Part shown: positions 9,200 through 47,438 of the stretch, in pieces | Numbering within the stretch: position 1 is the stretch's first letter | How the letters are laid out: each line of letters opens with the position of its first letter | NCBI RefSeq assembly: GCF_902167635.1 | Contig: NZ_CABHMS010000004.1 | Coordinates: 434,001 to 498,000, forward strand | DNA length: 64,000 nucleotides | Source: Chitinophaga vietnamensis | GTDB lineage: Bacteria; Bacteroidota; Bacteroidia; Chitinophagales; Chitinophagaceae | Reading direction: 5' to 3' | Position numbers and translations under genes: made by a program | Notes under the pieces: model-generated | Databases searched by the model: none | Told to the model about the DNA's origin: nothing | Seen by the model: the letters and a program-made list of their open reading frames with translations, nothing else

Positions 9200-9272
9200 T
9201 TTGTTATTTGAGGATTTGAGAATTTATGAATTTGTTTTAAATCAATAAATTCTCAAATCCTCAAATAACAAA
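9200..9272. repeat. Stop-abutting inverted repeat 1 (28-bp arms)
   Basis: The base after the acyl-CoA dehydrogenase TGA begins a 28-nt arm (9200-9227) that is a perfect reverse complement of 9245-9272, with a 17-nt spacer. The proximal arm has no C and the distal arm no G. There is no GC core and no clean T tract, so it differs from ordinary terminators in this window. It shares the word TGAGGATTTGA with the palindrome at 47359-47438. Confidence 0.95.
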
Positions 9273-9273
9273 A

Positions 9274-9281
9274 TATCTTTG
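9274..9281 (+). promoter_or_regulatory. Candidate -7 element for yggS, near-leaderless
   Basis: TATCTTTG at 9274-9281 matches TAnnTTTG and ends four bases before the yggS ATG at 9286. If used, the transcript would start at or within a few bases of the start codon. No clear TTTG -33 element lies 19-21 bp upstream; that position is inside the distal arm of the inverted repeat. Confidence 0.4.
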
Positions 9282-9285
9282 CCGG

Positions 9286-9972
9286 ATGGCAATCAATTTA
9301 CCCGCATATAACACCGTGCTCAAACAGCTGGCGCCTTATGGAGCAAAGCTGGTAGCAGTTTCCAAAACCAAGCCCGTAGCGGATATCGCAGCATTCTATG
9401 CAGCCGGGCAGCGCCTCTTCGGCGAAAACTATGTGCAGGAACTGGTAGAGAAACAGGCCGCACTCCCCACTGATATTGAATGGCATTTCATCGGTCACCT
9501 GCAATCCAACAAGGTAAAATACATTGCGCCTTTTGTGCATACCATCCATGCGGTAGACAGTATTAAACTGTTGCAGGAGATCAACAAACAGGCAGTGAAA
9601 AATAAACGGGTCATCAACTGTTTATTACAGTTGCATATTGCCGAAGAAGAAACTAAATTTGGGATGGATACCGCCGAAATGCAGGCATTGTTGCAGGCAT
9701 GGCAGCAGGAGCCTTCCGCATTCGCCGGCGTACGTATCGTTGGCCTGATGGGAATGGCTACCAATACATCCGATGAAATCCAGATCCGGAAAGAGTTCCA
9801 CCAGCTCCACCAGGTTTTCGGATCCGTGAAAGCAACGTATTTTGATACGGTTGATTATTTTAAAGAACGCTCCATCGGTATGAGCGCCGATTATGCCATC
9901 GCTTTGGAAGAAGGCAGCACTATGGTGCGCATCGGCAGTCTGCTCTTTGGAGAAAGGAACTATAACAAATAA
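9286..9972 (+). CDS. yggS: YggS/PLPBP-type pyridoxal phosphate homeostasis protein
   Basis: A 228-aa single-domain PLP-binding protein with a TIM-barrel fold like alanine racemase's N-terminal domain, but without enzymatic activity; it buffers cellular PLP. Family motifs are all visible: AVSKTKP with the Schiff-base Lys27, FGENYVQE, WHFIGHLQSNK, GLMGMATN, and GMSADYAIALEEGSTMVRIGSLLFG. The gene is followed after 15 bp by the TlpA-like lipoprotein gene, probably co-transcribed. Confidence 0.95.
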   Translation: MAINLPAYNTVLKQLAPYGAKLVAVSKTKPVADIAAFYAAGQRLFGENYVQELVEKQAALPTDIEWHFIGHLQSNKVKYIAPFVHTIHAVDSIKLLQEINKQAVKNKRVINCLLQLHIAEEETKFGMDTAEMQALLQAWQQEPSAFAGVRIVGLMGMATNTSDEIQIRKEFHQLHQVFGSVKATYFDTVDYFKERSIGMSADYAIALEEGSTMVRIGSLLFGERNYNK

Positions 9973-9987
9973 CAAGGGTTTTAACTT

Positions 9988-11220
9988 ATGAAAAAATTAT
10001 TGATCTGCTGCCTCGCCGGACTGGGCTTTGCTGCTTGCAGCAATGGCGCGGGCAAAGGACTGCGCAACGGCGTATGGCAGGCGAAACTGCACCGCAAAGA
10101 TGGCGCTGATATCGTGTTCAACTTTGAAGTAGGCGATAGCGCCGGTAAAAAAGTATTGTATGTGCTCAATGCAAAAGACCGGCTGTATGTAGATGATGTA
10201 AAGGTGAACGGCGATTCGCTCTTCATCAAAATGCCTTTCTTCGATTCTGAATTCAAAGCCAAACTGGCCGCCGACGGCCGCGCAGAAGGCCTGTGGATCA
10301 GGCATCTGGCTGATAAGGATGTGAGCATACCCTTCACTGCCATTCCCAATACCGCGGAACGTTTTAAAGTGAGCGCCCCCGCCAAAGGCAGCGTGAATGG
10401 CCGCTGGGCTACGTACTTCCTCGATCCCGCAAAAAAGGATTCCTCATTTGCAGTAGGCGAGTTCAAACAAACCGGTAACATCGTACACGGCACTTTCCTC
10501 ACCAGCACCGGCGACTACCGCTTCCTCGATGGCGTGATGGATGGCGATACCCTGCGCCTCTCTACCTTTGATGGCTCGCATGCCTATCTCTTCACAGCCA
10601 AACTGGAACAGGACAATACCCTGTCGGGCACCTTCTTCGCCGGTATCGGTGATGGCCGGGAAAAATGGATTGCCCGCAAGGACGACAACGCCAAGCTGCC
10701 CGATGAAACTTCGCTCGCAGGCATGAAGCCCGGTCAAACGAAGCTGGACTTCTCTTTTCCCGATCTGAACGGCAAGAAGGTCAGCATCAACGATTTTAAA
10801 GGCAAGGCGGTGGTGATCACACTGATGGGCTCCTGGTGCCCTAATTGCATGGATGAAACCGGCTACCTGAGCGATTGGTATAAAAAGAATAAAGACCGCG
10901 GGGTAGAAGTGATTGGCCTGGCTTATGAGCGCACTACAGATTTCGAGAAGTCGAAGAAGAGCCTCAGTGGCTTCCTCCGCCGTTTTGATGTGCAGTATCC
11001 TGTACTGATCACGGGCGTTACCCCTGCCGACCCGCAGAAAGGAGAGAAGACCCTGCCGCAACTGACGGGTATCAAAGGATTCCCCACTACGATCTTTATT
11101 GACAAGAAAGGAAACGTAAAAGAAGTGCATACCGGGTTTTCTGGTCCGGGTACAGGAGAACACTATGAGCAGTTCAAACTGGATTTCAATCGTCTCGTGG
11201 ATGAGCTGCTGAAAGACTGA
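9988..11220 (+). CDS. TlpA/ResA-like thiol-disulfide lipoprotein
   Basis: A 410-aa lipoprotein: signal MKKLLICCLAGLGFAAC with a lipobox cysteine at about residue 17. Residues ~25-245 form two related beta-rich modules of the kind found before thioredoxin domains in Bacteroidota (DUF4369-like, inferred). Residues ~250-410 are a TlpA-like thioredoxin domain with the active site WCPNC at about 282-286 and a cis-proline segment GFPTTIFIDKKG. It probably reduces disulfides, or matures cytochrome c, in the periplasm. Co-directional with yggS; a terminator follows at once. Confidence 0.9.
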   Translation: MKKLLICCLAGLGFAACSNGAGKGLRNGVWQAKLHRKDGADIVFNFEVGDSAGKKVLYVLNAKDRLYVDDVKVNGDSLFIKMPFFDSEFKAKLAADGRAEGLWIRHLADKDVSIPFTAIPNTAERFKVSAPAKGSVNGRWATYFLDPAKKDSSFAVGEFKQTGNIVHGTFLTSTGDYRFLDGVMDGDTLRLSTFDGSHAYLFTAKLEQDNTLSGTFFAGIGDGREKWIARKDDNAKLPDETSLAGMKPGQTKLDFSFPDLNGKKVSINDFKGKAVVITLMGSWCPNCMDETGYLSDWYKKNKDRGVEVIGLAYERTTDFEKSKKSLSGFLRRFDVQYPVLITGVTPADPQKGEKTLPQLTGIKGFPTTIFIDKKGNVKEVHTGFSGPGTGEHYEQFKLDFNRLVDELLKD

Positions 11221-11241
11221 AAATGAAATTATCGTTAATAA

Positions 11242-11285
11242 AAAGCGTAATGCCCCTTTCGGGATGTTACGCTTTGTTTTTTTAT
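11242..11285 (+). terminator. Rho-independent terminator after the TlpA-like gene
   Basis: Arms AAAGCGTAA (11242-11250) and TTACGCTTT (11267-11275) enclose a second CCC/GGG pairing, followed by a run of T at 11277-11284. Confidence 0.9.
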
Positions 11286-11677
11286 CTTTCTTTTATAAGT
11301 CGTTGTAAATCATTTGCAAAGCTCTCCTTCCAGACTTTTTAAGAAAATTTATTTTTTCATCTCTTTCAAAAAGTTTTGAAAAATTGAATATCCTGACTAT
11401 TTTACTGCTCCGTTTGACTTTATAAATTCCATTATCTACTCGCTTGTCTTATCCACCTGCCGGAACAATGTCTGACGATATTGTTCCGGGCAGTGTTTCG
11501 TAGCAGTTCGTTTTCTTTCCGTATATTTATGCCCTCGATAACAGATAGATTGTTCAATAGCGGACAGGCTTCGTGCATTCGTGAACAGTGAATAGAAACC
11601 GTGTTATTGAAAATCAGTGATTTATACTGCGGCATTATCCTTGAAACTTTGTTGACCGGTTAAATCCCGTATACAAA
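11286..11677. other. AT-rich intergenic stretch without a supported gene
   Basis: About 390 bp of AT-rich sequence after the terminator. A 67-codon minus-strand frame at 11432-11635 has no recognisable features and is not called. No repeat, tRNA or clear TAnnTTTG promoter was found. Confidence 0.6.
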
Positions 11678-11887
11678 ATGAAACCTAGAACTAACAGTAT
11701 CATGATCTTTGCCATTGCCGGAATACTGGCTATGGCAGCCCTTGTAGGGTACGGCCTGGGAATAGGTATCCGGCATGATATCTCTGTATACAGTGCTTGC
11801 CCTGATGCCCCGGCAAAAGTAAATACTGGCGGAATCCTCTATCCCATAGATGCCATGCTGCAGCATGTGAACCGCAGGACTAACTAA
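11678..11887 (+). CDS. Possible small membrane protein (69 aa)
   Basis: The frame starts ATG AAA CCT and encodes a basic head, one hydrophobic helix rich in Ala/Gly at about residues 8-32, and a short polar tail with one cysteine. The composition fits a single-span inner-membrane peptide and its GC content is higher than the flanking AT-rich DNA. It matches no family I know, and no strong promoter is visible. It lies in the same orientation as the YtxH gene 176 bp downstream. Confidence 0.4.
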   Translation: MKPRTNSIMIFAIAGILAMAALVGYGLGIGIRHDISVYSACPDAPAKVNTGGILYPIDAMLQHVNRRTN

Positions 11888-12063
11888 CGGTAACGCATAT
11901 ACGATATTTTATTTAACAATTTTTTAGTGTTGATTGAATTAAGTAATTCAGCCTATGTAGCAGATTAGGCCATTCCTGGCCTGATATTTGAAAAATTTGG
12001 TTTTCGCAGCGTAGGGTGAACCAACAGCTGTGGTGATTTGTTAAACTTAAAAAATCAGTGATT

Positions 12064-12366
12064 ATGTCTACTACCAAATTTTTAGCAGGCGCCCTGGCCG
12101 GACTCACTACCGGCGTTGTGATAGGTTTGTTAACAGCTCCTGACAGTGGCGAAGGAACCCGTAAAAAAATCAAACATACCGCCGAAGGATGGCGTTATAA
12201 GATCAACAAGCTTGTCGGTAAAGGCAGCGATGATCTTGCAGAGCTGAAAAAGGTGTTTGAACATGAGGTAACAGGCCTCAAAGATGATGTGCGCGAGCGC
12301 GTACTGAAACTGATCGATGAAAGTCAGAATTCCTACAATAGATTCAAGAAAGAAGCATTGTCATAG
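12064..12366 (+). CDS. YtxH domain protein
   Basis: A 100-aa protein with a hydrophobic Gly/Ala-rich N-terminal segment (FLAGALAGLTTGVVIGLLTAP), the GxxxGLLxAPxSGxxTRKKI signature of YtxH-like general-stress proteins, and an amphipathic helical tail. ATG 12064 is used; a GTG two codons upstream adds only two residues. These proteins are membrane-associated and often stress-induced, but their role is unknown. A bidirectional terminator follows, shared with the convergent SRPBCC gene. Confidence 0.85.
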   Translation: MSTTKFLAGALAGLTTGVVIGLLTAPDSGEGTRKKIKHTAEGWRYKINKLVGKGSDDLAELKKVFEHEVTGLKDDVRERVLKLIDESQNSYNRFKKEALS

Positions 12367-12404
12367 TTAGTCATCATGCTATTTTGATGGCAAGCAAAAA
12401 AAAT

Positions 12405-12442
12405 AAAAGACCCTTTGTACAATTTGTGCAAAGGGTCTTTTA
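12405..12442. terminator. Bidirectional terminator
   Basis: AAAAGACCCTTTG at 12405-12417 pairs with CAAAGGGTCTTTT at 12429-12441, with A/T tails on both sides. It separates the convergent YtxH and SRPBCC genes. Confidence 0.9.
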
Positions 12443-12460
12443 ATGACGGGTTTTCAACAA

Positions 12461-13183
12461 TTAGTTAACGATTTCCCCTGTTTCCATATAATTTTTGAAG
12501 CGTTTGATATCGCGGATGATCATGTTTTCAAACGCAGGATTGAGCAGCCACATGAGGCCGGTGCCTACATAACCTGCAGGCGGGCGGTAGGTGATCATCA
12601 CATCTATTTCGGTGCCGCCATTCAGTGTATCCCTGAACGTTACCCTGCCTGCGGTGGCAATAGACGATCCCTGCAGGGAGCGCCAGCCAAGGAATTCGCC
12701 GGGTTGCTCCTTCACGATCTCTGCATCCCATTCCAGGGTGCCAATGCCGCCCGGACCTTTTACCACCCAATGCGAATGAAACGGATCCAGCTCCTCAACG
12801 GATTGCAGGTGTTTCATGAACACCGGCAGGTTATTGAGTTGCCGCCAGAAATAATATACTTCTTCACGGGGATTGTCGATCATCACCGTGGTCCGGATAT
12901 TAATAGCCTCGGTATGATGATCCGGCCTGCGTTTGCCGAAAAGCCCGTTGAGCAGGTTATTGCCCGAAATGCCCTGGTACAGCAGGTAGCCAGCTCCCAA
13001 CAACCTGAATAAACTGCCTACCGGTTTTTTATCCACTTTGCTGATAGCCGCGCCCAGCAGCCAGGCGCCAGTGAAAATAGAAACGATCCTCCCTTCCGGG
13101 CTCACATTAATGATGTTGGAACTTTCATAGATCGGCCCCGCCATTGGCTGGCTATGGCCATTCAAGATATCTGTTGCACTCAT
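12461..13183 (-). CDS. SRPBCC/polyketide-cyclase-like protein with membrane hairpin
   Basis: The protein is about 240 aa from ATG 13183 (MSATDILNG); an upstream extension to 13333 reads through AT-rich DNA and is rejected. Residues ~30-85 hold two hydrophobic segments joined by a Lys-rich turn, like YgaP/DUF2892-type hairpins. The rest is a START-like SRPBCC domain (IRTTVMIDNPREEVYYFWRQLNNLPVFMKHLQSVEELD, then WVVKGPGG and GTLEWDAEI). This two-part layout is common in Bacteroidota and Proteobacteria proteins annotated as cyclase/dehydrase; the ligand is unknown. Confidence 0.85.
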   Translation of the reverse strand: MSATDILNGHSQPMAGPIYESSNIINVSPEGRIVSIFTGAWLLGAAISKVDKKPVGSLFRLLGAGYLLYQGISGNNLLNGLFGKRRPDHHTEAINIRTTVMIDNPREEVYYFWRQLNNLPVFMKHLQSVEELDPFHSHWVVKGPGGIGTLEWDAEIVKEQPGEFLGWRSLQGSSIATAGRVTFRDTLNGGTEIDVMITYRPPAGYVGTGLMWLLNPAFENMIIRDIKRFKNYMETGEIVN

Positions 13184-13384
13184 AAATACTTTTGAATACC
13201 CCTCATCATAAATCTTGCAATTCAGTAAATGTCTGATGTTGAATTGAAAAGATATTAGCAATAAGATGATGTAGTGTAGAAGTTGCTCACGGTGCGTAAA
13301 AAAATACACAATGATCTTTAACGAATTGAACATTGTATTTATGCGTCAAACAGCCTATCTTACTCCCCATCAAACAAGGAACGA

Positions 13385-14233
13385 ATGAAAAACATACTGA
13401 CCACGTTATTTACACTCGCAGCCCTCAGCTGCGCCGCCCAGCAAGAGATTGCTCCAAACAAATGGGTGAAGATGTTCAATGGCAAAGACCTTAAGGATTG
13501 GGATATCAAGATCACCGGCCATGATCTCAATGATAATTTCGGCAATACTTTCCGGGTGGAAAAGGGCTTGCTAACCGTTAACTACGATCACTATAAAAAT
13601 TTTGATGACCAGTTCGGGCATATCTTCTATAAAAAAAATTTCTCTGCCTACCTCATAGTGGTAGAATACCGCTTCACCGGCGAACAGGTGAAAGGCGGCC
13701 CCGGATGGGCTTACCGCAATAGCGGCGTGATGCTGCATGGCCAAACAGCGGCCTCCATGGGCAAAGACCAGGACTTTCCCATTTCGTTGGAAGAGCAATT
13801 ACTTGGCGGCAATGGCAAAGATGTACGGCCTACTGCCAACCTGTGCACGCCCGGCACCAACGTGGTGATGAATGGTAAACTGATCACCGATCACTGCATC
13901 GGTTCCACCGCCAAAACATTTCATGGCGACCAATGGGTACACGTAGAAGCCCTGGTACTGCGGGATTCCGTGATCAAGCACATTGTAGGTACCGATACCG
14001 TACTGGTATATGAGAAACCGCAGATCGGCGGCGGCAGCGTATCACACTACGATCCGGCCGTAAAGCAAGACGGGAAGCTGCTGACAGAAGGCTCCATCTC
14101 ATTACAGAGCGAGAGCCATCCCGTTGCCTTCAGGAAAGTAGAGCTGTTTGATCTGTCGCCCTACATCAACAATCCGGCGAAACTCAACAGGATACTACAT
14201 TTGCTGCAACAGCGCAACAAAGCTAAAAAGTGA
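13385..14233 (+). CDS. Secreted DUF1080 (3-keto-disaccharide hydrolase family) protein
   Basis: A 282-aa protein with a signal peptide (MKNILTTLFTLAALSCAAQ) and one concanavalin-like DUF1080 domain: WVKMFNGKDLKDWDIKITGH at the start, YRNSGVMLHGQ in the middle and GSISLQSESHPVAFRKVELFDL at the end, all family hallmarks. DUF1080 proteins include 3-keto-glycoside hydrolases acting on oxidised disaccharides in the periplasm. No oxidoreductase partner is adjacent. Whether it is lipid-anchored is unclear: the LSC at 14-16 could be a lipobox, but the A-Q junction fits signal peptidase I. Confidence 0.9.
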   Translation: MKNILTTLFTLAALSCAAQQEIAPNKWVKMFNGKDLKDWDIKITGHDLNDNFGNTFRVEKGLLTVNYDHYKNFDDQFGHIFYKKNFSAYLIVVEYRFTGEQVKGGPGWAYRNSGVMLHGQTAASMGKDQDFPISLEEQLLGGNGKDVRPTANLCTPGTNVVMNGKLITDHCIGSTAKTFHGDQWVHVEALVLRDSVIKHIVGTDTVLVYEKPQIGGGSVSHYDPAVKQDGKLLTEGSISLQSESHPVAFRKVELFDLSPYINNPAKLNRILHLLQQRNKAKK

Positions 14234-14344
14234 GGCGCGGGGCCTCGGCGGATGTGGAGGAGCCGGTGGCCTTCTTGGCGGAACACAGCTGAGGGCCAGC
14301 AACAATAACATGGCTATCACAGCCGGCATATGCTTCTTCTTCAT
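14195..14344 (-). CDS. Probable small proline-rich lipoprotein (49 aa)
   Basis: A short minus-strand frame, ATG 14344 to TAG 14195, encodes a Lys-rich head (MKKKHM), a hydrophobic core and a lipobox LALSC with the cysteine at residue 20, followed by a Pro/Arg-rich tail (VPPRRPPAPPHPPRPR). That is the layout of many small Bacteroidota lipoproteins. The last 39 bases overlap the 3' end of the convergent DUF1080 gene. No clear promoter is seen, and the function is unknown. Confidence 0.5.
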   Translation of the reverse strand: MKKKHMPAVIAMLLLLALSCVPPRRPPAPPHPPRPRASLFSFVALLQQM

Positions 14345-14389
14345 ATGATCAGCTTTTTACTAACAGCTACCACAAAAATGCAGCCGATA

Positions 14390-14410
14390 GCGGCCCCACA
14401 TCGGGGCCGC
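14390..14410. terminator. GC-rich hairpin, weak terminator
   Basis: GCGGCCCC (14390-14397) pairs with GGGGCCGC (14403-14410) around a 5-nt loop. The following ATTGCTTTG is only a weak T tract. It lies between the small lipoprotein and the DUF4272 gene. Confidence 0.5.
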
Positions 14411-14456
14411 ATTGCTTTGTAAGAAAGCCGTAAATTGCACCCTCGAAAATCTCAGC

Positions 14457-15686: not shown

Positions 15687-15710
15687 TTTTTTGGAAAAGG
15701 AGTAATAAAT

Positions 15711-15752
15711 AAAAAATGCCTCCGGAATATCCAGCTTTCGGAGGCATTTTTT
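15711..15752. terminator. Bidirectional terminator
   Basis: AAAAAATGCCTCCG (15711-15724) pairs with CGGAGGCATTTTTT (15739-15752). It sits between the convergent DUF4272 and beta-helix genes. Confidence 0.95.
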
Positions 15753-15763
15753 ATCATGAGTTA

Positions 15764-19392: not shown

Positions 19393-19465
19393 TGCAGTTA
19401 GTTGATAGTTTAAAAAGGTAGATCGAATATACAAATTCCGGTTCTTTTCGTTTGGCGGGCGCACT

Positions 19466-19516
19466 AAAATAGCCAAGGCCCGCTATGCAGGTTTGCTAGC
19501 GGGCCTTGGCTATTTT
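19466..19516. terminator. Strong terminator after dcd (20-bp stem)
   Basis: A perfect 20-bp stem, 19466-19485 with 19497-19516, has an 11-nt loop, a GC-rich core and AAAAT/ATTTT ends. It lies eight bases past the dcd stop. Confidence 0.95.
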
Positions 19517-19523
19517 AAATTTA

Positions 19524-26559: not shown

Positions 26560-26641
26560 AATTACGAATTACGAGTTAAGAATTACGGCCCATCCGATAG
26601 ATCGTCGGTGGGCCGTAATTCTTAACTCGTAATTCGTAATT
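26560..26641. repeat. Stop-abutting inverted repeat 2 (33-bp arms)
   Basis: A perfect 33-nt arm pair (26560-26592 with 26609-26641) begins three bases after the LolA-like TAA. CCGA/TCGG at 26594-26597 and 26605-26608 extends the stem. Arms are built of AATTACG-type words. The distal arm overlaps the -33 region of the lpdA promoter. Confidence 0.95.
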
Positions 26642-28102: not shown

Positions 28103-28275
28103 ATTTTTTGATTTACGGATTTTTTGATTTATAAATTTAGTGGTGTCGCCCCTATGGAGCGTAATATTGGTAGATGAATCACTGTCTATCAACATTACGC
28201 TCCATAGGGGCGACACTATTTTATTTATAAATCAAAAAATCCCTAAATCAAAAAATCCGTAAATCAAGAAATCCT
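28103..28275. repeat. Stop-abutting compound inverted repeat 3
   Basis: This fills almost all the space between the convergent lpdA and S8 peptidase stops. The inner stem is GC-rich and perfect over 23 bp (28143-28165 with 28194-28216), extended inward with few mismatches. The outer stem is 19 bp (28118-28136 with 28223-28241). The outer arms are tandem 16-nt units: two copies on the left (28103-28134) and three on the right (28228-28275). The 18-mer ATTTTTTGATTTACGGAT occurs at 28103-28120 and again at 47369-47386. Confidence 0.95.
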
Positions 28276-33770: not shown

Positions 33771-35951
33771 ATGAAAAGAATATCAGATACGTTGCACCAA
33801 TCCGCGAAGGCAACACTATTGCTGGTACTGCTGGTACTGGCTCAACAAGCCTATGCCACGGAAGGAATGTGGCTGCCACAGCTGCTTTCAAACCTCAACG
33901 AAAAAGAGATGAAAGCAATGGGCATGAAAATCAGCGCCGCCGATATCTATAGTATCAACAAAGGCAGCCTTAAAGATGCCATCGTTAGCTTCGGCGGCTT
34001 CTGCACCGCAGAAGTGATCTCCTCCCAGGGCCTGCTGCTCACTAACCACCACTGCGGCTATGATGCCATCCAGAAACACTCTTCCCTACAAAATAACTAC
34101 CTGGAAAACGGCTTCTGGGCCAGAACAGCAGCGGAAGAATTGCCCAACCCCGGTCTCACAGCCACTTTCATCGTACGCATCGACGACGTTACCAAAGCGG
34201 CCCTCGCCGATGTAAAACCCGGCATGACAGAAAGGGAACGGCAATCCGCCATCGATAAACGCCTCAACGAAATCCGCCAGAACACCCGCCGCGAAGCATG
34301 GCAGGATGTAATGATCAAACCTTTCTTTGAAGGCAACCAGTATTTCCTGTTTGTAACCGAAACGTATAAAGATGTAAGACTGGTAGGCGCACCGCCTTCC
34401 TCCATCGGTAAATTCGGCTCCGATACTGATAACTGGGTGTGGCCCCGCCATACCGGCGACTTCAGCATGTTCCGCATCTATGCCGGCAAAGATGGCCGCC
34501 CGGCGCCTTATTCACAGGATAACGTGCCCCTGAAACCGAAATATTTTCTGCCCATCTCCATGAAAGGCGTTAAACCGAACGACTTCACCATGGTGCTCGG
34601 ATTCCCCGGCCGCACCAATGAATACCTGCCTTCCGAAGGTGTGAGGCAAACCGTGAATGTACTCGATGCCGCCAAAGTGGAAATGCGCGATGCCGCCCTC
34701 AAGATCATCGACGGCTACATGCGCAAGGATGAACAGATCAAAATACAATACGCCTCCAAATACGCTGTTACCGCCAACTACTGGAAAAAGTGGGGCGGTG
34801 AAATGCAAGGCATCAAACAAACCAATGGTATCGGCAAAAAGATACAGTACGAAAAGGAATATAACCAGCTCCTCAACGCCAACCCCGCGCTGCAACAGCA
34901 GTACGGCGGCGTGCTGGATACACTTAATGCACTCTATAAACAGATACAGCCCTATGCCCAGGCGCGCGACTACTACAGCGAACTCGTGAAAAATGTAGAA
35001 GTGTTCACCGCAGCCGATCGCCTCATCAACTTCCTCAACGATGTACACGAAAAAGGAGAAGGCCAGTACGAAAGCATGCGCCAGCAATTCCTCGATGGCA
35101 TGCAGTCGTTCTACCAAAACTATAACGTGAACGTGGATCATGATGTGTGCGCCGCACTGGTAGGCCTCTACGCACGCAACGTGCCTAAACAGTACAGTGG
35201 CAACGACTTCGCACTGCTATGGCAGGAAAATAATAAAGACGGGCACACGCTGGCAGACAAGATCTTCGCGGTAAGCGGACTAACGTCTATGGATAAACTG
35301 AAAGCATTTGTACAACAACCTTACAATACAGTAGTGGCGCAAATGTGGAAAGATCCTTCTACCCGCCTTGTGATGGCACTCCGCAAAGGTTATGTGGATA
35401 ATATTGGCAGGCCGCTCAACGACCTCCAGGCGGATATCAACAACCGTCAGCGCCTGTACATGCAGGCCCAGATGGACGTGATGGGCAATAAAAAACGCTT
35501 CTATCCCGATGCCAATAGCACATTACGCGTTACCTATGGCAAAGTAGATGGCTACAATCCCCGCGATGCCATTCATTACGACTACTACACCTATCTTGAT
35601 GGCGTAATGGAAAAATATGTTCCTGGCGATTATGAATTCGACGTGCCCGCAAAGCTCATCGATCTCTATAAGAAAAAAGATTACGGCCGCTATGGCGTTA
35701 ATGGCCGCATGCCTGTATGCTTCATCGCCTCCAACCACACTACCGGCGGCAATTCCGGCAGTCCGGCGCTCAATGCTTATGGCCAGCTGGTAGGTCTCAA
35801 CTTCGACCGTACCTGGGAAGGCACCATGAGCGATATCAATTACGATCCGTCCATCTGCCGCAATATCATGGTGGATATCCGCTATGTGCTGTTCATCATT
35901 GATAAATACGCCGGCTGCACCCGTCTGATCGACGAAATGAAACTTATTTAG
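33771..35951 (+). CDS. S46 dipeptidyl peptidase, DPP11-like (Asp/Glu-specific)
   Basis: A 726-aa secreted serine peptidase with a signal peptide ending near QQAYA. Chymotrypsin-like catalytic residues are visible: His94 in LLTNHHCGYD, the Asp region GSDTDNWVWPRHTGDF and Ser662 in TGGNSGSPALN; a large helical domain is inserted between them. The residue 18 positions after the catalytic Ser is Arg680 (NFDRTWEG). From memory of the Porphyromonas enzymes, Arg there marks DPP11 (acidic P1) while Gly marks DPP7. It supplies dipeptides in the periplasm. Its TAG stop is the outer end of an inverted-repeat arm. Confidence 0.92.
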   Translation: MKRISDTLHQSAKATLLLVLLVLAQQAYATEGMWLPQLLSNLNEKEMKAMGMKISAADIYSINKGSLKDAIVSFGGFCTAEVISSQGLLLTNHHCGYDAIQKHSSLQNNYLENGFWARTAAEELPNPGLTATFIVRIDDVTKAALADVKPGMTERERQSAIDKRLNEIRQNTRREAWQDVMIKPFFEGNQYFLFVTETYKDVRLVGAPPSSIGKFGSDTDNWVWPRHTGDFSMFRIYAGKDGRPAPYSQDNVPLKPKYFLPISMKGVKPNDFTMVLGFPGRTNEYLPSEGVRQTVNVLDAAKVEMRDAALKIIDGYMRKDEQIKIQYASKYAVTANYWKKWGGEMQGIKQTNGIGKKIQYEKEYNQLLNANPALQQQYGGVLDTLNALYKQIQPYAQARDYYSELVKNVEVFTAADRLINFLNDVHEKGEGQYESMRQQFLDGMQSFYQNYNVNVDHDVCAALVGLYARNVPKQYSGNDFALLWQENNKDGHTLADKIFAVSGLTSMDKLKAFVQQPYNTVVAQMWKDPSTRLVMALRKGYVDNIGRPLNDLQADINNRQRLYMQAQMDVMGNKKRFYPDANSTLRVTYGKVDGYNPRDAIHYDYYTYLDGVMEKYVPGDYEFDVPAKLIDLYKKKDYGRYGVNGRMPVCFIASNHTTGGNSGSPALNAYGQLVGLNFDRTWEGTMSDINYDPSICRNIMVDIRYVLFIIDKYAGCTRLIDEMKLI

Positions 35952-36050
35952 CTATTTTATTATTTGGTTATTTTGATATTTAGTTTCCACGAAAATCTTA
36001 GCGGAAACTAAATATCAAAATAACCAAATAATAAAATAATCAAATAGCTA
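35949..36050. repeat. Stop-to-stop inverted repeat 4 (36-bp core arms)
   Basis: Perfect 36-nt arms at 35953-35988 and 36003-36038 have a 14-nt spacer. The outer ends are TAGCTA on both sides (35949-35954 and 36045-36050), with an 8-nt insertion on the right. The left TAG is the S46 peptidase stop and the right CTA is the complement of the methyltransferase TAG stop, so the repeat spans exactly stop to stop of the convergent genes. Confidence 0.95.
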
Positions 36051-36970: not shown

Positions 36971-37082
36971 GATTTTCGGATTTTGGAATTTTCGGATTTT
37001 GGAATTTGCATCCTCGCCTTAAATTCCAAAATTCCAAAATTCCAAAATTCCAAAATCCGAAAATCCGAAAATTCCAAAATCC
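36971..37082. repeat. Stop-abutting inverted repeat 5, 8-nt units
   Basis: The left arm (36971-37007) and right arm (37021-37082) are strings of two 8-nt words, GGAATTTT/AAAATTCC and CGGATTTT/AAAATCCG, in mirrored order. The right arm has extra copies. It ends at the base before the mutase stop codon complement (TTA at 37083-37085). Confidence 0.93.
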
Positions 37083-40179: not shown

Positions 40180-40220
40180 CTGATGATGAATGTTTTATGC
40201 GCACAAATATATAATAATTT

Positions 40221-40267
40221 AATTATAAATGATAGCCCCGCCAGCAGCGGGGCTATCATTTATAATT
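40221..40267. terminator. Perfect 21-bp stem terminator after aspC
   Basis: Arms 40221-40241 and 40247-40267 pair perfectly over 21 bp around a 5-nt loop: GC-rich core GATAGCCCCGC, AT-rich base. It lies five bases past the aspC stop on the minus strand. Confidence 0.93.
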
Positions 40268-40272
40268 AACTA

Positions 40273-41466: not shown

Positions 41467-41492
41467 AATGCTTAATATTGGGTTGACCGGGA

Positions 41493-41500
41493 CAAACCTA
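41493..41500 (-). promoter_or_regulatory. Candidate -7 element for aspC
   Basis: CAAACCTA on the plus strand reads TAGGTTTG on the minus strand, an exact TAnnTTTG. The predicted start near 41487 leaves a ~20-nt leader. No clear -33 TTTG was found. Confidence 0.45.
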
Positions 41501-41540
41501 CAGAAAAAAAGAGAAATCACTTAGCGGTGGATACGAAGCG

Positions 41541-41576
41541 CAACAAAAAAAGGAGCAAGCGCTCCTTTTTTTGTTG
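41541..41576. terminator. Terminator after the DUF4397 gene
   Basis: CAACAAAAAAAGGAGC (41541-41556) pairs with GCTCCTTTTTTTGTTG (41561-41576) around a 4-nt loop; on either strand the stem ends in a T run. Confidence 0.93.
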
Positions 41577-41603
41577 GTAAGATTTTATATAAACCGGTGT
41601 TTA

Positions 41604-42341
41604 CTAGTAGGTACCCTGCCAGCTGGGGAAGACGCCGGTAACGAGTTTGGTGGCGCCGGTGCTGCTTTTGCTGCCTGCCAGGTAAGCGGTATAAACGTTG
41701 CCAACTTGCAGCATTCGTCCCGGCAGGGAAGAAAGATTGTTGTTGGTAGCCAATACAGAATCCTTGCCAGCTACTTTGATGGTGATCACATCGGTCTGGC
41801 CAAGGTTGTCCGGCAGTTGTACAAACGACGTGGGGAAATAGCCAGCAGCAAAGGTTCTGTTGCTATCCACTTTCTGTGTGCCGATGAATACATCCACCGG
41901 GCCTGCATCTTTACTGAGGTTGAAGAAACGGAAATTTATTTTATTGTTTTGAGCGGAGGTAAGATCGTTGTATACAACAACGCCTTTTGCCGGCTCATCA
42001 TAAATCAGATAAGTGTAGTAGGAAGTAGAGTCGAAGTTGTAAGTCGTTTGTGTTACTACGCTGTCTTTCTTGCCAGCGGCGGTGAACAGGTAGGTGTGGT
42101 TACCACCGAAGCCGTACCATCTTGACTGGAAGTTGAAGTTGATCGGGTTGTTGCTGGTGATCTTGGTATCGTTGTCATAGAAGTCCAGGTTCACGCCGTT
42201 GGTGGATGCATTGAGTATCCATACCCAGTACTGAGGTCTGGAAGGAGTGATGTTAGTATCATTTTTCAGACAGGAAGAAAGTCCCAGGATTCCTGCAAAC
42301 AAGGCTACAATGGCCCAAGCACGATTTTTCTTTGTTAGCAT
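41604..42341 (-). CDS. DUF4397 lipoprotein
   Basis: A 245-aa lipoprotein: signal ending GLSSC with the lipobox cysteine near residue 24, then a DUF4397 domain of two transthyretin-like halves (VWILNASTNGVNLDFYDND, INFRFFNLSKDAGPVDVFIG). Such proteins are common in Chitinophagaceae, sit in the outer membrane or periplasm and have no known function. It is 40 bp downstream of the beta-lactamase-fold gene on the same strand and may be co-transcribed. Confidence 0.88.
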   Translation of the reverse strand: MLTKKNRAWAIVALFAGILGLSSCLKNDTNITPSRPQYWVWILNASTNGVNLDFYDNDTKITSNNPINFNFQSRWYGFGGNHTYLFTAAGKKDSVVTQTTYNFDSTSYYTYLIYDEPAKGVVVYNDLTSAQNNKINFRFFNLSKDAGPVDVFIGTQKVDSNRTFAAGYFPTSFVQLPDNLGQTDVITIKVAGKDSVLATNNNLSSLPGRMLQVGNVYTAYLAGSKSSTGATKLVTGVFPSWQGTY

Positions 42342-42381
42342 CTGCTCTCAGTTTTTTGTTATGTGAGATTTAATTTTTCAA

Positions 42382-43578
42382 TCATTCAGTTTTGAACCTG
42401 CCGAGATCTGGTTGAATGGTCTTCCGGCGTTCCAGTTCATGTTGGTAGATCATCTCTCCCAAAGCCTTCAGGAAAGGCTTCCCCGTTTCTTCGAATTCGT
42501 ACTGGTCATCTCCCAGTATGCCATCTTTGTTGACGTAAATGGAGGCAGATAATAAAAACTCTATACCGTTGGAAAAGTCTACAATATAGGCTGCATCAGT
42601 TAAAAATCCATACGCCCATCCGGGTTTGTTAAAGATCCTGATATGTGATGGTATCCTGGCTGTTTTCTGTCCGCCATACATCAGGAACTTCACGTAGGCC
42701 TGCTTGTACTGGATATGGTCATACACCGGATCTTTTGATGCCGGCGGGTACTGCGACATACAACGATACAGGAAATTATAATCACTTTCATTTAAACGGA
42801 AACGTTGCGCTTTTGTTACAGCCTCCGGAAAAATTATGCTGCGTAAAATTTCATGCAGTGAAACGAGAGGGAGGCGGTTGCGGTAGGAGAAGTCCATAGG
42901 CCGCTGTTCCAGCACCCCGAGATGATTGTAATGTGCCTGGCCAACAAGATCGAGGCGTGAGGAGAAAGACAGCCGGCTGTATTGGGCGGCTTGCTGGTAC
43001 AATAATCTTTTGCCATCCATGAAGCGGACCGCATTGGTATGGCGGTTGGCTTCTTCGTGCAGGGGCAGGCCTACGCGGTGCCTGATCTCGGAGCTGGTGT
43101 AGCCGGCCTCCCACAGTCGCCGGTTGAAAGCTTCCTGGCCAATGAATTCATATAGGCGGTTGAAGGCGTCATTATCACTTACGAGAAATATTTTTTTAAT
43201 GTAATGCCCGATAGAAGGCAATCCGGATGCCGCGGAATGATCAGCTGTGACGCCGGTATTCACGCCTGCCAGGGGCGCGGTGAACATGGGTGTGAACAGG
43301 TCCAGGCCCGGAATATCCAGCTCCCGGAGCTTTTCCAGGGCCAGGATAGCGCCTGGCAGTTTCACCGTAGAAGCAGGGTAGAAGTAGGCCCCTGGCTTGC
43401 TGCGGTAATGAAAATCGGTAAAAACCGGGCGCTGGCGGGCATCCCGGTCAATACGGGTGTAAACAATCTGGAGACGGTAAGTTTCAGGATCGCTGAAAAC
43501 CTTGCCCAGTATGCCTTTGCGGCCCTTCAGCAATGCATACGGAAAATTATCAGTTGTGCGATAATGTTGGGTTTGCAT
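42382..43578 (-). CDS. Beta-lactamase-fold serine hydrolase without signal peptide
   Basis: A 398-aa protein of the class A beta-lactamase/penicillin-binding fold (Beta-lactamase2). The nucleophile motif is Ser70-x-x-Lys73 (PASTVK), the second motif Ser134-Asp-Asn (VSDND) and the KTG-equivalent a KPGW near residue 310. Relatives in Chitinophagaceae normally carry a secretion signal; here the frame starts MQTQHYRTTDNF with none, and the upstream in-frame codons to the stop contain no start. It may be cytoplasmic or have lost its signal. It is not a clear antibiotic-resistance enzyme: the third motif differs and the length is about 100 aa above TEM-type enzymes. Confidence 0.82.
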   Translation of the reverse strand: MQTQHYRTTDNFPYALLKGRKGILGKVFSDPETYRLQIVYTRIDRDARQRPVFTDFHYRSKPGAYFYPASTVKLPGAILALEKLRELDIPGLDLFTPMFTAPLAGVNTGVTADHSAASGLPSIGHYIKKIFLVSDNDAFNRLYEFIGQEAFNRRLWEAGYTSSEIRHRVGLPLHEEANRHTNAVRFMDGKRLLYQQAAQYSRLSFSSRLDLVGQAHYNHLGVLEQRPMDFSYRNRLPLVSLHEILRSIIFPEAVTKAQRFRLNESDYNFLYRCMSQYPPASKDPVYDHIQYKQAYVKFLMYGGQKTARIPSHIRIFNKPGWAYGFLTDAAYIVDFSNGIEFLLSASIYVNKDGILGDDQYEFEETGKPFLKALGEMIYQHELERRKTIQPDLGRFKTE

Positions 43579-43721
43579 ATATTTGTCGGTATTACGTGCT
43601 GTAAAGCAAAGGAATTATATTAAAATCCGGAAGAAACCAGAATCGCAATTTGGGAAATTTTTATGCCAACAGGCCCGCAAACTCAGGCATGGAGCGATTT
43701 TGCGCTTCTTTTTTCAAGGGC

Positions 43722-43751
43722 TTTAATATATCAATTTAAATTCTATCTTTG
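43722..43751 (+). promoter_or_regulatory. Promoter for secDF
   Basis: TATCTTTG (43744-43751) matches TAnnTTTG. TTTA at 43722-43725 is one base off the -33 TTTG at 18-bp spacing. The leader to ATG 43794 would be about 35-40 nt. Confidence 0.6.
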
Positions 43752-43793
43752 CAACTCTTAAAAATTTTTTATTATAAACCCGAAACAAACAAT

Positions 43794-46700
43794 ATGCAAC
43801 TTAAAGGACTGGTAAGATTTTTTGCCATCGCACTGATCCTTATCTCTTTGTACCAATTGTCCTTCACGTTTTTAGTGCGGAACTATGAGAAGAAGATAGA
43901 CAAGCAGGCTGAAAACGATGTGGCCAAACAATTCCCTACCGCTGAGATGAAATATCCTGGTAACAAAGAACAACAGGCGTTTTACTCAGATACACTGAAA
44001 GGGTTTATTAAACAGAGAAGACAAGAGATCGTGGACAGCACCAGCAATAAGCAGATTGCAGGGTTCCCATGGTACGTTTCCTACAACAAAGCCAAAGAGA
44101 AAGAACTGAACCTCGGTCTCGACCTCGTGGGCGGTATGAACGTAGTGCTGGAAGTAAGTGTGGAAGATGTGATCCGTGCGCTGTCCGGCCAGTCCAAAGA
44201 CCCCGCCTTCAACAGAGCGCTGGACCTCGCGAAAGAACGTAGAAAAGTCAGCCAGGCCGATTTCGTTACTTTGTTCGGGCAAACTTATGCGGAAGTGGCT
44301 CCCCAGGGCAAACTGGCTACCATCTTCGCAAATGCTTACCAGAAAGATATCAACTTCAACTCCTCCAACCAGCAGGTACTGGACATGATCCGCAGGGAAG
44401 CCCGTGCGGCCATCAAAAACACCTATATCGTACTGCAAAAACGTATCGATAAATTTGGTGTGGCACAACCCAATATCAGCCTGGATGAGAATAAAGGCCT
44501 CATCTCCGTGGAACTCGCCGGTGTAGACAATGCCGAGCGCGTACGCAAATACCTGCAGGCCACCGCTAACCTGGAGTTCAGGGAAGTTTATAAAAACAAC
44601 CCCGAGTTCATCCAGAATGTGCTCAGCCCGATGAACGAAGCCATCAGGAACGCCCTTGGCAACGCTCCCGTAGTTGACACCACTAAAAAAGAAACAACTG
44701 CCGCAGCCACTACTGCTAAAGGCGATTCCAGCAAAACCGGCAGCCTGACCGACTACCTCGCAAAAGACAGCGGTAAAAAAGCTAAATCTGATACCGGCCT
44801 CGCCGCCAGGGAATTGCAGATCAAAGAAGCGCAGCGTCAAAACCCGCTCTTCGCGATCCTCATCCCTAACGTAGATCCGCAATCAGGTACCATCTTCCCG
44901 GGTCCTTCCATCGGCAGGATCTTCCCGAAAGATACCGCTACCCTCCGCCGCTACCTGGAATTACCAGCTGTAAAAGCCGTACTGCCTAAAGATGCAGTAT
45001 TTGCCTACGGCCCGGAAAATAAAGACGACAAACACGGCGTACTGGAACTCTACGCACTGAAAGTAAACCCTGCTAACCCGGCTCCCCGCGTTGGTGGCGC
45101 TAACGTAGTAGATGCCCGTGCAGACGTAGACCAGAACAACCAGAACGAGATCAGCATGACCATGGACGGCGAAGGCGCCCACCAATGGAAAAAGCTGACC
45201 GGCGAACTGGCGCCTGCCAACCCGAAAGACAGAGCTACTTATAACTACGTGGCAGTAGTACTCGACAACATCGTTTACTCTGCTCCATCTATCCAGGGCG
45301 AAATCGCTGGCGGCCGCTCTTCTATCACCGGTAGCTTCACCCCGGAAGAAGCCAATGACCTGGCAAACATCCTGAAATCAGGTAAAATGCCGGCTCCTGC
45401 CAAGATCGTTCAGGAACAGATCGTAGGACCCACCCTCGGCGCTGAATCTATCGCCGCCGGTGCTAAATCCTTCATGATCTCCTTCGTGATCATCTTCGTA
45501 CTGATGCTGGTTTACTATAACAGCGCCGGTTGGGTAGCCAACATCGCGCTGATCCTCAACCTGCTGTTCACCTTCGGTATCCTGGCCTCCCTGGGCGCTA
45601 CGCTCACCATGGCCGGTATCGCAGGTCTCGTACTCACAGTAGGTATGGCCGTAGATACCAACGTAATCATCTTCGAAAGGATCAAGGATGAACTCACACA
45701 TGGCAAGTCGTACCCACAAGCCATCAGCGACGGTTACCGCCGCTCCCTGGCGCCGGTGCTCGATGGTCACGTAACCTCCTTGCTTACAGCTTTCATCCTG
45801 TTCTACTTCGGTCTCGGTCCGGTACTGGGCTTCGCAACCACACAGATCATCGGTTTGCTGCTGTCCCTGTTCTGCGGTATCCTCGTATCCCGCATGGTAA
45901 CTGACTGGTGGACGAATAAGAAAAGACACTTCGAATACTTCACACCGATTTCCCGCAAAGTGTTTAAACACGCTGCCTTCGACTTCGTTGGCAAACGTAA
46001 ATTCGCTTACGTGATCTCCGCTGTGGTAATGATAGCCGGTATCTCTTCTTTCTTCCACGGCTTTGACCACGGTATCGACTTCTCCGGTGGCCGCAGCTTC
46101 ACCGTGCGTTTCGAACAACCCATGAAGACTGACGATGTAAGGGCCGCACTGAAAACAGAATTTGGTTCTGAACCATATGTAAAAACGATCGGTACTACCA
46201 ACCAGCTCAACATCACTACTGCTTACAAGATCGAAGAACAAAGTATCGCAGTGGATAATGAAGTGGTGGAAAAACTGTTCCATGGCCTGAAGAAATACTA
46301 TGATCCCAGCGTTACACAGCAGGCCTTTACAACCCGCTATATCGTAGGTTCACAAACAGTTTCGCCCACTATCTCCGACGATCTCCGTCAGGGTGCTGTA
46401 AGGGCGACTATACTGTCTATCGTAGTGATCTTCCTGTACATCCTGCTGCGATTCAGCAAATGGCAATATTCTATCGGTACTATCTTCTCCCTGCTGCACG
46501 ACGTACTCGTAACATTGGCAGTATTCTCCTGGTGCAGGAGCTTCGTACCTTTCACACTGGAAATTGACCAGCACTTCATTGCTGCGATCCTGACAGTGAT
46601 CGGCTTCTCCATGAACGATACCGTGATCGTGTTCGACCGTATCCGTGAATACTTCAAAACCGGTACGCATGGTAAAGACCGCAACACCGTGATCAATAAA

Positions 46701-46955
46701 GCGATCAACGATACGCTGAGCCGTACCATCATGACCTCGCTCACTGTGTTCCTCACCATCCTGATCCTCTTTATCTTCGGTGGTGAAGTAACCCGCGGTT
46801 TCGCCTTCGCAATGCTGATCGGTGTGATCACTGGTACTTACTCCTCTATCTTCGTAGCGGCGCCTGTACTGGTTGACTTTGACAAGAAGAACCAGCTGTC
46901 TAACGAAAGCGACGTACTGGCCGCTCCTGTTAAGAAGGAAGCAGCTACCAAGTAA
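43794..46955 (+). CDS. secDF: Fused protein translocase SecDF
   Basis: A 1053-aa fusion of SecD and SecF, the proton-driven accessory of Sec protein export. ATG 43794 (MQLKGLVRFFAI) is used; an upstream TTG lies inside the promoter. The SecD half has the first TM, LGLDLVGGMNVVLEV, a periplasmic P1 region with a Lys/Thr/Ser/Asp-rich low-complexity insert (~residues 295-345), and the TM bundle with GMAVDTNVIIFERIKDE. The SecF half begins near 720 with GIDFSGGRSFTVRF, and has GFSMNDTVIVFDRIRE and a final TM pair. Fused SecDF is normal in Bacteroidota. Confidence 0.96.
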   Translation: MQLKGLVRFFAIALILISLYQLSFTFLVRNYEKKIDKQAENDVAKQFPTAEMKYPGNKEQQAFYSDTLKGFIKQRRQEIVDSTSNKQIAGFPWYVSYNKAKEKELNLGLDLVGGMNVVLEVSVEDVIRALSGQSKDPAFNRALDLAKERRKVSQADFVTLFGQTYAEVAPQGKLATIFANAYQKDINFNSSNQQVLDMIRREARAAIKNTYIVLQKRIDKFGVAQPNISLDENKGLISVELAGVDNAERVRKYLQATANLEFREVYKNNPEFIQNVLSPMNEAIRNALGNAPVVDTTKKETTAAATTAKGDSSKTGSLTDYLAKDSGKKAKSDTGLAARELQIKEAQRQNPLFAILIPNVDPQSGTIFPGPSIGRIFPKDTATLRRYLELPAVKAVLPKDAVFAYGPENKDDKHGVLELYALKVNPANPAPRVGGANVVDARADVDQNNQNEISMTMDGEGAHQWKKLTGELAPANPKDRATYNYVAVVLDNIVYSAPSIQGEIAGGRSSITGSFTPEEANDLANILKSGKMPAPAKIVQEQIVGPTLGAESIAAGAKSFMISFVIIFVLMLVYYNSAGWVANIALILNLLFTFGILASLGATLTMAGIAGLVLTVGMAVDTNVIIFERIKDELTHGKSYPQAISDGYRRSLAPVLDGHVTSLLTAFILFYFGLGPVLGFATTQIIGLLLSLFCGILVSRMVTDWWTNKKRHFEYFTPISRKVFKHAAFDFVGKRKFAYVISAVVMIAGISSFFHGFDHGIDFSGGRSFTVRFEQPMKTDDVRAALKTEFGSEPYVKTIGTTNQLNITTAYKIEEQSIAVDNEVVEKLFHGLKKYYDPSVTQQAFTTRYIVGSQTVSPTISDDLRQGAVRATILSIVVIFLYILLRFSKWQYSIGTIFSLLHDVLVTLAVFSWCRSFVPFTLEIDQHFIAAILTVIGFSMNDTVIVFDRIREYFKTGTHGKDRNTVINKAINDTLSRTIMTSLTVFLTILILFIFGGEVTRGFAFAMLIGVITGTYSSIFVAAPVLVDFDKKNQLSNESDVLAAPVKKEAATK

Positions 46956-46989
46956 GATGATTAATCCGGAAAATGTTTGATACAAATAA

Positions 46990-47027
46990 AAATCCCCTCT
47001 CGTTATACGGGAGGGGATTTCTTTTTT
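46990..47027. terminator. Terminator between secDF and the IscA-like gene
   Basis: AAATCCCCTC (46990-46999) pairs with GAGGGGATTT (47011-47020), with further CG pairing inside and a T run to 47027. It separates the convergent secDF and IscA-like genes. Confidence 0.93.
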
Positions 47028-47039
47028 CAGTAAGTATGC

Positions 47040-47324
47040 TTAGCTGTTGAATACAAAGCCCTGTGTATCTGCCTCCTGGCGGTAATCTATTTCGATGCCC
47101 ATGAGGTGCATGGCATGTGCTTTCTTCATAATCACGGGGATGCCGGCAATCTCGAATTGCTCATCATCCGCCTGTTTGGCGTCAAAGCCCAGCATATAGG
47201 CCATCCCTGAGCATCCGCCGCCCTTTACCCCTACACGCAGGTAGGGCGCCTCTGTACCGCCTTCCAGCAGCTTTTTCAGCACGTTTACGGCGTTATCTGT
47301 CAGCCTTATAGGTATCCCATTCAT
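47040..47324 (-). CDS. IscA/HesB-like protein lacking the C-terminal cysteine pair
   Basis: A 94-aa A-type Fe-S carrier-like protein. The first cysteine motif VKGGGCSGMAYMLGFD (Cys38) and the family DYRQEADTQGFVF region are present. Standard IscA/SufA/ErpA (~107 aa) end with NPN...CGCGxSF, supplying two more cluster ligands; this one stops at GFVFNS. It therefore keeps only one of three ligand cysteines. It could be a HesB-like domain with another role, a truncated gene or a dimer using a different ligand set. An 80-bp perfect palindrome separates it from the upstream coaE. Confidence 0.8.
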   Translation of the reverse strand: MNGIPIRLTDNAVNVLKKLLEGGTEAPYLRVGVKGGGCSGMAYMLGFDAKQADDEQFEIAGIPVIMKKAHAMHLMGIEIDYRQEADTQGFVFNS

Positions 47325-47358
47325 ATCTTCATCAATTTTATAAATCAGCTTCGCGGAA

Positions 47359-47438
47359 TAATTTTCGGATTTTTTGATTTACGGATGTGAGGATTTGATC
47401 AAATCCTCACATCCGTAAATCAAAAAATCCGAAAATTA
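47359..47438. repeat. Perfect 80-bp palindrome (inverted repeat 6)
   Basis: Positions 47359-47398 are the exact reverse complement of 47399-47438 with no spacer, centred on TGATCA. The outer TTA (47436-47438) is the complement of the coaE TAA stop. It contains the 18-mer ATTTTTTGATTTACGGAT also found in the 28.1 kb repeat, and TGAGGATTTGA also found at 9.2 kb. Confidence 0.98.

Follow-up and report, generated by a model that had tools for sequence, protein, structure and literature searches.

Six intergenic sites between positions 9200 and 47438 of a 64,000-nucleotide stretch of the Chitinophaga vietnamensis genome (contig NZ_CABHMS010000004.1, positions 434,001 to 498,000; hereafter the window) carry inverted repeats at stop codons, and the locus raises the question of what keeps the two arms of each repeat nearly identical while the sequences differ from site to site. 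The analysis revealed dispersed elements that are positioned at gene ends, built of periodic words of one polarity, changed on both arms between sister species in excess of independent mutation, inverted in the loop at two sites, turned over between species and exchanged with ordinary terminators. The elements are not chance pairings, not repetitive extragenic palindromes (REPs) and not simply terminators. The favoured explanation, to which a probability of roughly 0.57 is assigned, is that they are dispersed gene-end hairpins whose arms would be homogenised by template switching, which would grow until a stop codon is reached, and which probably serve as terminators.

The six sites of the window

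All six elements of the original prediction could be recovered at their coordinates as near-perfect inverted repeats. The adjacency to stop codons claimed for them was confirmed as well, since every whole element lies at most 6 nt from a called stop or overlaps one, the genes concerned ending at 9199, 26556, 28096, 35951/36048, 37083 and 47436. An 18-mer and the sequence TGAGGATTTGA, both said to be common to more than one site, could be read in the sequence. The features are as follows, with minimum free energy abbreviated as MFE.

9197..9199, forward strand: stop codon bordering the 9200 element
9200..9272: palindrome of the 8-mer words TATTTGAG GATTTGAG AATTTATG; arms of 34 nt, 94% complementary; begins at the stop codon of an acyl-CoA dehydrogenase-like gene; predicted RNA MFE -37.9
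26560..26641 (site A): palindrome of the 7-mer word AATTACG; arms of 33 nt, 33/33 pairs, 100%; 3 nt past the stop of the LolA gene and ahead of the dihydrolipoyl dehydrogenase gene; predicted RNA MFE -60.5
28103..28275 (site B): GATTT 8-mer palindrome; arm pair 28103-28256, 72 nt, 90%; between the convergent stops of the dihydrolipoyl dehydrogenase gene and a gene for a protein with a T9SS sorting domain
28143..28216: GC-rich core GTGTCGCCCC...GGTAG nested in site B, resembling by eye the GTAG-tagged REP class (GTAG-REP) that flanks the REP-associated tyrosine transposase (RAYT) gene
35949..36050: TATTT 8-mer palindrome; arm pair 35945-36046, 49 nt, 90%; between the convergent stops of a Dpp7-like peptidase gene and a methyltransferase-like gene
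36971..37082: GATTTTCG/GATTTTGG 8-mer palindrome; arm pair 36971-37065, 37 nt, 95%; adjoins the stop codon of a reverse-strand methylmalonyl-CoA mutase-like gene
47359..47438: perfect palindrome of 40+40 bp, 100%, without spacer; predicted RNA MFE -55.9
47436..47438, reverse strand: stop codon of the dephospho-CoA kinase gene, within the 47359 element

The element at 35949..36050 is related to another at L007:16284-16368, and by eye the differences between them are mirrored on both arms. No Rfam family matched the window at the gathering score, and a known RNA family was rejected on this ground. Two further perfect inverted repeats of the window (19465-19517 and 40219-40269, with 21 and 23 pairs) contain no words and resemble ordinary long terminators.

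Abundance and placement at stop codons

The sequence read amounted to 864 kb, namely the window and 40 stretches of 20 kb, the source genome being 6.3 Mb. Genes were called with our own simple gene caller and inverted repeats were accepted at a score of at least 20. Ninety-one repeats were found in the 864 kb, a density that would extrapolate to hundreds per genome and that is a biased genome average, because many stretches sat on loci with a known pattern match. None of the repeats (0/91) was inside a called gene; 31 + 28 lay in tandem gaps, 25 in convergent and 4 in divergent gaps, and 3 at stretch ends. The comparison with shuffled intergenic DNA suggested in the original prediction gave a clear outcome: the intergenic segments contained 85 repeats, and all 10 of their dinucleotide shuffles contained 0; at a laxer score of 16, the real segments had 104, nine shuffles had 0 and the tenth had 1. 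A single palindrome pattern matched 89 times in the 6.3-Mb genome, with some overlapping matches at one site (possible in all pattern counts given here), and 0 times when read backwards. Low complexity could thus be rejected as the source by both the shuffles and the reversed-pattern control. By word class, the 91 repeats comprised 39 GATTT, 16 AGGATT, 6 GCAAAG, 3 AATTACG, 3 TATTT, 6 GTAG-REP and 18 others, an arm with two word kinds being assigned to the first.

Stops were abutted (at most 6 nt) by 42 of the 84 elements with a flanking stop, whereas 2000 random placements within these gaps averaged 27.4 and never exceeded 37. The same was evident in tandem gaps only, with 25/59 compared to a mean of 11.9 and a maximum of 20 at random. 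The six GTAG-REPs of the sample were located 30-226 nt from the stop (p=0.0002 vs the GATTT class), and abutment is therefore not a trait of every dispersed palindrome. Divergent gaps held 4/88 repeats while accounting for approximately 30% of intergenic bases (p=6e-9). Thus, as expected of intrinsic terminators, the hairpins occur downstream of genes and are rare in divergent gaps.

Word composition and polarity

The arms consisted mostly of tandem octamers, among which GATTTACG (34) and GATTTTTT (20) were the commonest of 24 unit types in the 5' arms of the sample. The 5' arms of the window's own genome matched themselves at 46% with a lag of 8 and 43% with a lag of 16, and at 22-38% with the other lags from 2 to 20. 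Read inward, the words showed a fixed polarity (GATTT 45:0, AGGATT 16:0, AATTACG 12:0, GCAAAG 10:0, AAAGC 8:0, TATTT 7:0), giving a tally of 98:0 over 149 elements from eight genomes, in which one element may count for several words. One exception, with the related TTTAGC words on the 5' arm, is C. hostae L022:6313-6385, a locus outside this tally.

The common vocabulary noticed earlier could be substantiated, as the words recur; their periodicity, the dispersed families and the fixed polarity had been missed. A base bias, with a C-poor arm next to the stop, had also been claimed. The arms are biased, and the rule is inward polarity and not stop position, because a palindrome reads alike on both strands; the stop-side arm at 26560 is not C-poor, containing 6 C and 7 G when counted by eye. 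Cores are shared at several loci (GAAGCGGAGAT..., GTGGCGGA..., GGTTACTAAGTAACC), and AGGATT/GATTT arm hybrids are present at L004:15840, L019:11751 and L202:1316. The AGGATT-word family includes arms of up to approximately 100 bp (L005:17104-17375, L018:976-1169, L206:14865-15130 and others), and its long palindromes often enclose the hairpin AGCCCTTGAAGCGCT...AGCGCTTCAAGGGCT and are sometimes fused to GATTT arms.

Across Chitinophaga the word vocabularies are lineage-bound. The GATTT pattern was present in 3/30 genomes (89, 4 and 2 matches), AATTACG in 11/78, AAAGC in 40/79 (up to 51 matches) and TATTT in 11/79 (up to 37 matches), while the backward-read controls of these four patterns gave 0 in all genomes but one, which had 1 in the AAAGC survey. 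The highest AAAGC counts in the genus were observed in G024 and G067 (51 and 48 matches). C. hostae and G040, whose pattern matches were identical in place and sequence in 10/10 cases, are apparently the same assembly. Words and polarity together suggest that the elements descend within families, with slippage as a possible contributor.

Changes of the two arms between sister species

Orthologous elements were compared in syntenic stretches of three sister-species sets (G047/G029, G066/G036 and the trio G018/G019/G064) with a background divergence of 5.9-8.4% (92-94% identity). Counting started from every element in one species and demanded only alignment in the other. Among 62 elements in five directed comparisons, 33 were comparable, 14 had no anchors and 3 were not collinear, and in 12 cases the element was missing from the sister species or replaced there; the trio comparisons are not independent, because they share sites.

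Among the pairs intact in the first species, 742 were unchanged, 34 had changed on both arms and were still paired, 55 had changed on one arm, and 3 had changed on both arms and were unpaired; gap cells (15 both-arm, 112 one-arm) were set aside. Elements with two-arm changes numbered 3/12, 2/6, 2/4, 4/7 and 3/4 in these five comparisons. The five reverse comparisons gave 39 two-arm against 56 one-arm changes. When independent mutation was simulated on random sequence, with no indels and a filter for detectable palindromes, two-arm changes made up 0.5% at 7%, 1.3% at 12% and 2.6% at 20% divergence. The observed share was 37%, or approximately 16% without the two richest sites (10 vs 53), so that joint change of the arms is above the independent expectation of about 1%. 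When the palindrome had to be detectable in each of the two species, 21 pairs yielded 54 two-arm and 19 one-arm changes; this filter biases the result, and the unfiltered 34:55 is therefore preferred. The earlier proposal of copying from one arm to the other, or of selection for pairing, accordingly finds support in the joint changes (34:55 compared to 0.5-2.6% expected), with copying the better fit of the two; independent mutation of the arms, named there as the contrary outcome, is also partly seen.

At the first of the two rich sites G018, G019 and G064 all differ, each having changed on both arms; the G018 and G064 loops, which carry the same insertion, have an identity of 0.92 though the arms differ. 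Mirrored internal indels of approximately 2, 5 and 9 bp were present at G047:55119, the one site from which they are cited, with an unmirrored 19-bp gap beside them, and at G047:98849 a single arm contains an additional heptad; the counts refer to substitutions, as arm-end gap columns are unreliable. Within the sampled 14% of the window's genome, the own 3' arm was the best match of the 5' arm in 27/31 GATTT and 16/19 AGGATT elements.

Loops of at least 8 nt could be examined in 20 orthologue comparisons, of which two were clearly inverted: the loop of G047:375068 aligned with that of G029 at 0.84 inverted and 0.65 direct, and the loop of G047:91593 at 0.83 inverted and 0.74 direct. A third was marginally better inverted and poor in both directions. 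An inverted loop would be the expected product of template switching or inter-arm recombination, and loop inversions are discussed for template switching in the accessible part of PMC8794818.

Exchange with ordinary terminators at orthologous sites

Sites A and B were classified by a crude automatic rule in 30 Chitinophaga genomes, including the window's own. Behind the LolA gene (site A), a palindrome of score at least 20 was found in 13 genomes and a decayed or short palindrome in 7; a single genome had a T-tract terminator, and the remaining 9 had neither. The 13 palindromes contained AATTACG, AAAGC or GATTT words, or other sequence. Behind the dihydrolipoyl dehydrogenase gene (site B), 4 genomes had a palindrome and 14 a T-tract terminator. 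By eye there are more ordinary terminators than the rule reports, and further species, viewed by eye only, carry them at site A too (L025, L026 and L042). Neither of the window's own sites A and B has a T-tract terminator by the automatic rule, and a simple scan flags one within the nested REP core at site B. Since orthologous sites carry either kind, palindromes and terminators take each other's place at a given position, and the view that the palindromes are a class separate from GC-rich terminators was too strong. In G060, site B (L108) contains several tandem copies of the terminator hairpin AGAAGCCTTTCTGATTTTCAGAAAGGCTTCT between TTATTT-word arms.

A U-tract was not a consistent property of the word-built hairpins, which were followed by 3.55 T in 10 nt compared to 2.69 before them (n=58).

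Proposed origin and maintenance

The hairpins would belong to several dispersed families of palindromes made of tandem words of 7 or 8 bases reading inward. During replication of such a palindrome, the newly made strand may fold or switch onto the other arm and copy it. This copying would correct mismatches and carry unit changes across the arms, would sometimes invert the loop, and could lengthen the palindrome outward. Outward growth into coding sequence would be removed by selection, which would leave the outer edge at the stop codon. Such a hairpin would be retained because its position is that expected of a terminator, and it would act as, or in place of, a bidirectional transcript 3' end. 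Arm copying is supported by the comparisons above but not proven.

Several observations weigh against this explanation. One-arm changes exceed two-arm changes (55 against 34), and two sites of a single species trio supply 24 of these 34 two-arm counts, meaning that the events are fewer than the counts. Most comparable loops are not inverted. Diverged loops (0.54-0.62) are found in G019 at site 1 and in G064 at site 2 of the two rich sites, making replacement by another family member possible there. Low-complexity arms are hard to align, and the 112 one-arm gap cells may be partly noise or real indels. When plain identity is used with ties allowed, the own partner at least equals the best other arm in 13/19 AGGATT elements. 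The inconsistent U-tract leaves the terminator role as one that we infer.

Alternative explanations

Selection for RNA pairing, in which the hairpins act as terminators or 3'-end stabilisers and each mutation of an arm is later compensated by one in the opposite arm, is considered an unlikely account of the arms. The placement after stops, the exchange with canonical terminators at orthologous sites and the very stable RNA hairpins predicted at the six sites are in its favour. In the accessible part of Monttinen and Loytynoja (2022, PMC8794818), 78.5% of the two-step compensations described affect G-U or U-G pairs. Here, mismatches in tandem sites, oriented by transcription, comprised 42 G-U, 34 A-C and 51 others, and G-U was not significantly above A-C (p=0.42). 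Two-arm changes showed a transition to transversion ratio (24:10) at the background level (44900:18413, p=1), although transversions cannot proceed via G-U; the numbers are small, and they indicate two-arm changes without a need for G-U intermediates. The mirrored indels at one site also speak against pairing selection, as do the two inverted loops, which it does not predict. RNA wobble selection was thus not favoured as the main cause in view of the mismatch types and the ratio, and copying at the DNA level was preferred because this ratio equals the background, G-U is not in excess and two loops are inverted.

It is also improbable that mobile palindromes, similar to miniature inverted-repeat transposable elements (MITEs) or to REP doublets forming hairpins (REPINs), insert ready-made beside stops and have matching arms since the insertions or replacements are young. 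Inward polarity, the cores shared at several loci, presence or absence between sister species, the lineage-bound vocabularies and the diverged loops of the two rich sites would suit such insertion. It agrees poorly with the finding that an arm mostly finds its best match in its own partner though unit order and count vary among elements, and with the two-arm changes between G018 and G064 at rich site 1, where the loop insertion is common to both. Two cleanly empty sites were viewed (opposite G047:111263 and 141527), and neither had a clear target duplication.

The only Y1 transposase found also goes with a different repeat. A single Y1_Tnp match was obtained in 6.3 Mb, flanked by GTAG-REP arrays, and no word-built inverted repeat was reported in this 3.3-kb locus. 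GTAG/CTAC was present near the outer end of 5/67 word-built elements (14% in random intergenic sequence) and CGTC/GACG in 5/67; the GTAG/CTAC tag was present in 6/6 GTAG-REPs, a class in whose definition such words played a part. The word-built elements as a rule do not bear the end tags of REPs and REPINs, and a RAYT/REP origin of this class is unsupported by the tags, the stop distance and the Y1 locus. The Y1/RAYT-like match itself (L208, G000:C4, approximately 222211-222555), bordered by the GTAG REP array CGCCCC...GGGGCGGAGTTGGTAG, represents a classical RAYT-REP pair.

Accidental pairing of short A+T-rich words, which the repetitive arms might suggest, has practically no chance of being the cause, given the empty shuffles (0 in all 10 vs 85), the absence from called genes (0/91) and the reversed pattern (89 vs 0).

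Relation to SbcCD

SbcCD cleaves DNA hairpins. Matches to sbcD above the cut-off were obtained in 24/79 Chitinophaga genomes, of which 23 were usable, the match in G009 being a fragment with an internal stop. The same 23 genomes matched sbcC strongly (E ~1e-43 or better) and the other 56 weakly (3e-8 at best), while in none of the 79 did sbcC reach the family cut-off. No sbcD above the cut-off was present in the window's genome, nor in 17/18 genomes with at least 5 pattern palindromes, the exception being G067. At least 5 pattern palindromes were present in 1/23 genomes with sbcD against 17/56 without (p=0.016, ignoring kinship); with at least 1 the trend was reversed (16/23 against 29/56, p=0.21). 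The patterns used were derived from genomes without sbcD, and one genome lacking an AATTACG count was taken as 0. It also counts against a role of SbcCD that G067 has two full-length sbcD matches yet 50 pattern palindromes, and that 27/56 genomes without sbcD have none. A small pattern-free check revealed 0 repeats in 84 kb of eight stretches from genomes with sbcD, and 0 also in L025 and L027, from genomes without it. The absence of SbcCD as a cause is a weak lead. A more speculative view, held only tentatively, is that some lineages run a continuing palindrome factory by template switching, mutational and not selective, enabled or revealed by the lack of SbcCD, in which each lineage would evolve its own word vocabulary of terminators.

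Breadth and comparison with known systems

The dihydrolipoyl dehydrogenase beside two of the sites, a conserved protein, has 94-96% identity to those of C. eiseniae, C. hostae and C. dinghuensis, on which basis the genome could be assigned to Chitinophaga. A survey of 80 Bacteroidota loci around this gene revealed repeats of score at least 20 in Chitinophaga (8 in 171 kb), Arcicella (3), Aquimarina (2), and Flectobacillus, Pedobacter and Flavobacterium (1 each). A further 10 were found in 867 kb of loci unlabelled by genus, including one each in Chryseobacterium L082, L083 and L085, and eleven other labelled genera had 0 at the surveyed loci. Another Chitinophagaceae metagenome-assembled genome carries a word-built palindrome at L051:17489 (GAGTGAAT/GAGTGGAT octamers), and the phenomenon may thus not be confined to Chitinophaga.

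Among the papers listed by the literature searches, no title or abstract opening describes these elements in Chitinophaga, subscription journals being mostly outside the coverage. Intrinsic (Rho-independent) bidirectional terminators are similar in having a hairpin just past the stop, between convergent or tandem genes and at the same orthologous sites, whereas the arms here are much longer, A+T-rich and directly at the stop, with no consistent U-tract. The following likenesses are drawn from the accessible parts of the papers cited. Quasi-palindrome template switching (Monttinen and Loytynoja 2022, PMC8794818) shares joint stem changes, including multi-base steps, invertible loops and independence of a G-U step; that work describes RNA genes, whereas here bacterial gene-end palindromes of tandem words end at stops. 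REPs, bacterial interspersed mosaic elements (BIMEs) and REPINs with their RAYTs (PMC3116915, PMC3733652) are likewise dispersed, many-copy extragenic palindromes, and one RAYT-like gene is present in the genome, but the arms here are longer and word-built, and the GTAG-REPs form a class of their own, without abutment to stops. The mitochondrial coding palindromes of Nematomorpha (PMC6649704) are also long perfect inverted repeats in a compact genome, but lie inside genes, as 0/91 do here. Intergenic heptamer direct repeats such as TAACTGA (PMC4679880) form species-patchy 7-mer arrays beside genes, in some Bacteroidetes too; those are direct and mostly near starts, whereas the present repeats are inverted, at stops and of many word variants.

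Significance

Compensatory changes on the two sides of a stem are commonly taken to prove selection on RNA structure. In Chitinophaga the gene-end hairpins are numerous within a genome, and their two sides can change jointly without a wobble signature; in this bacterial system, arm copying and selection are for this reason separable by experiment. Such a system would show a mutational route for the growth and replacement of terminators, and why these palindromes end at stop codons.

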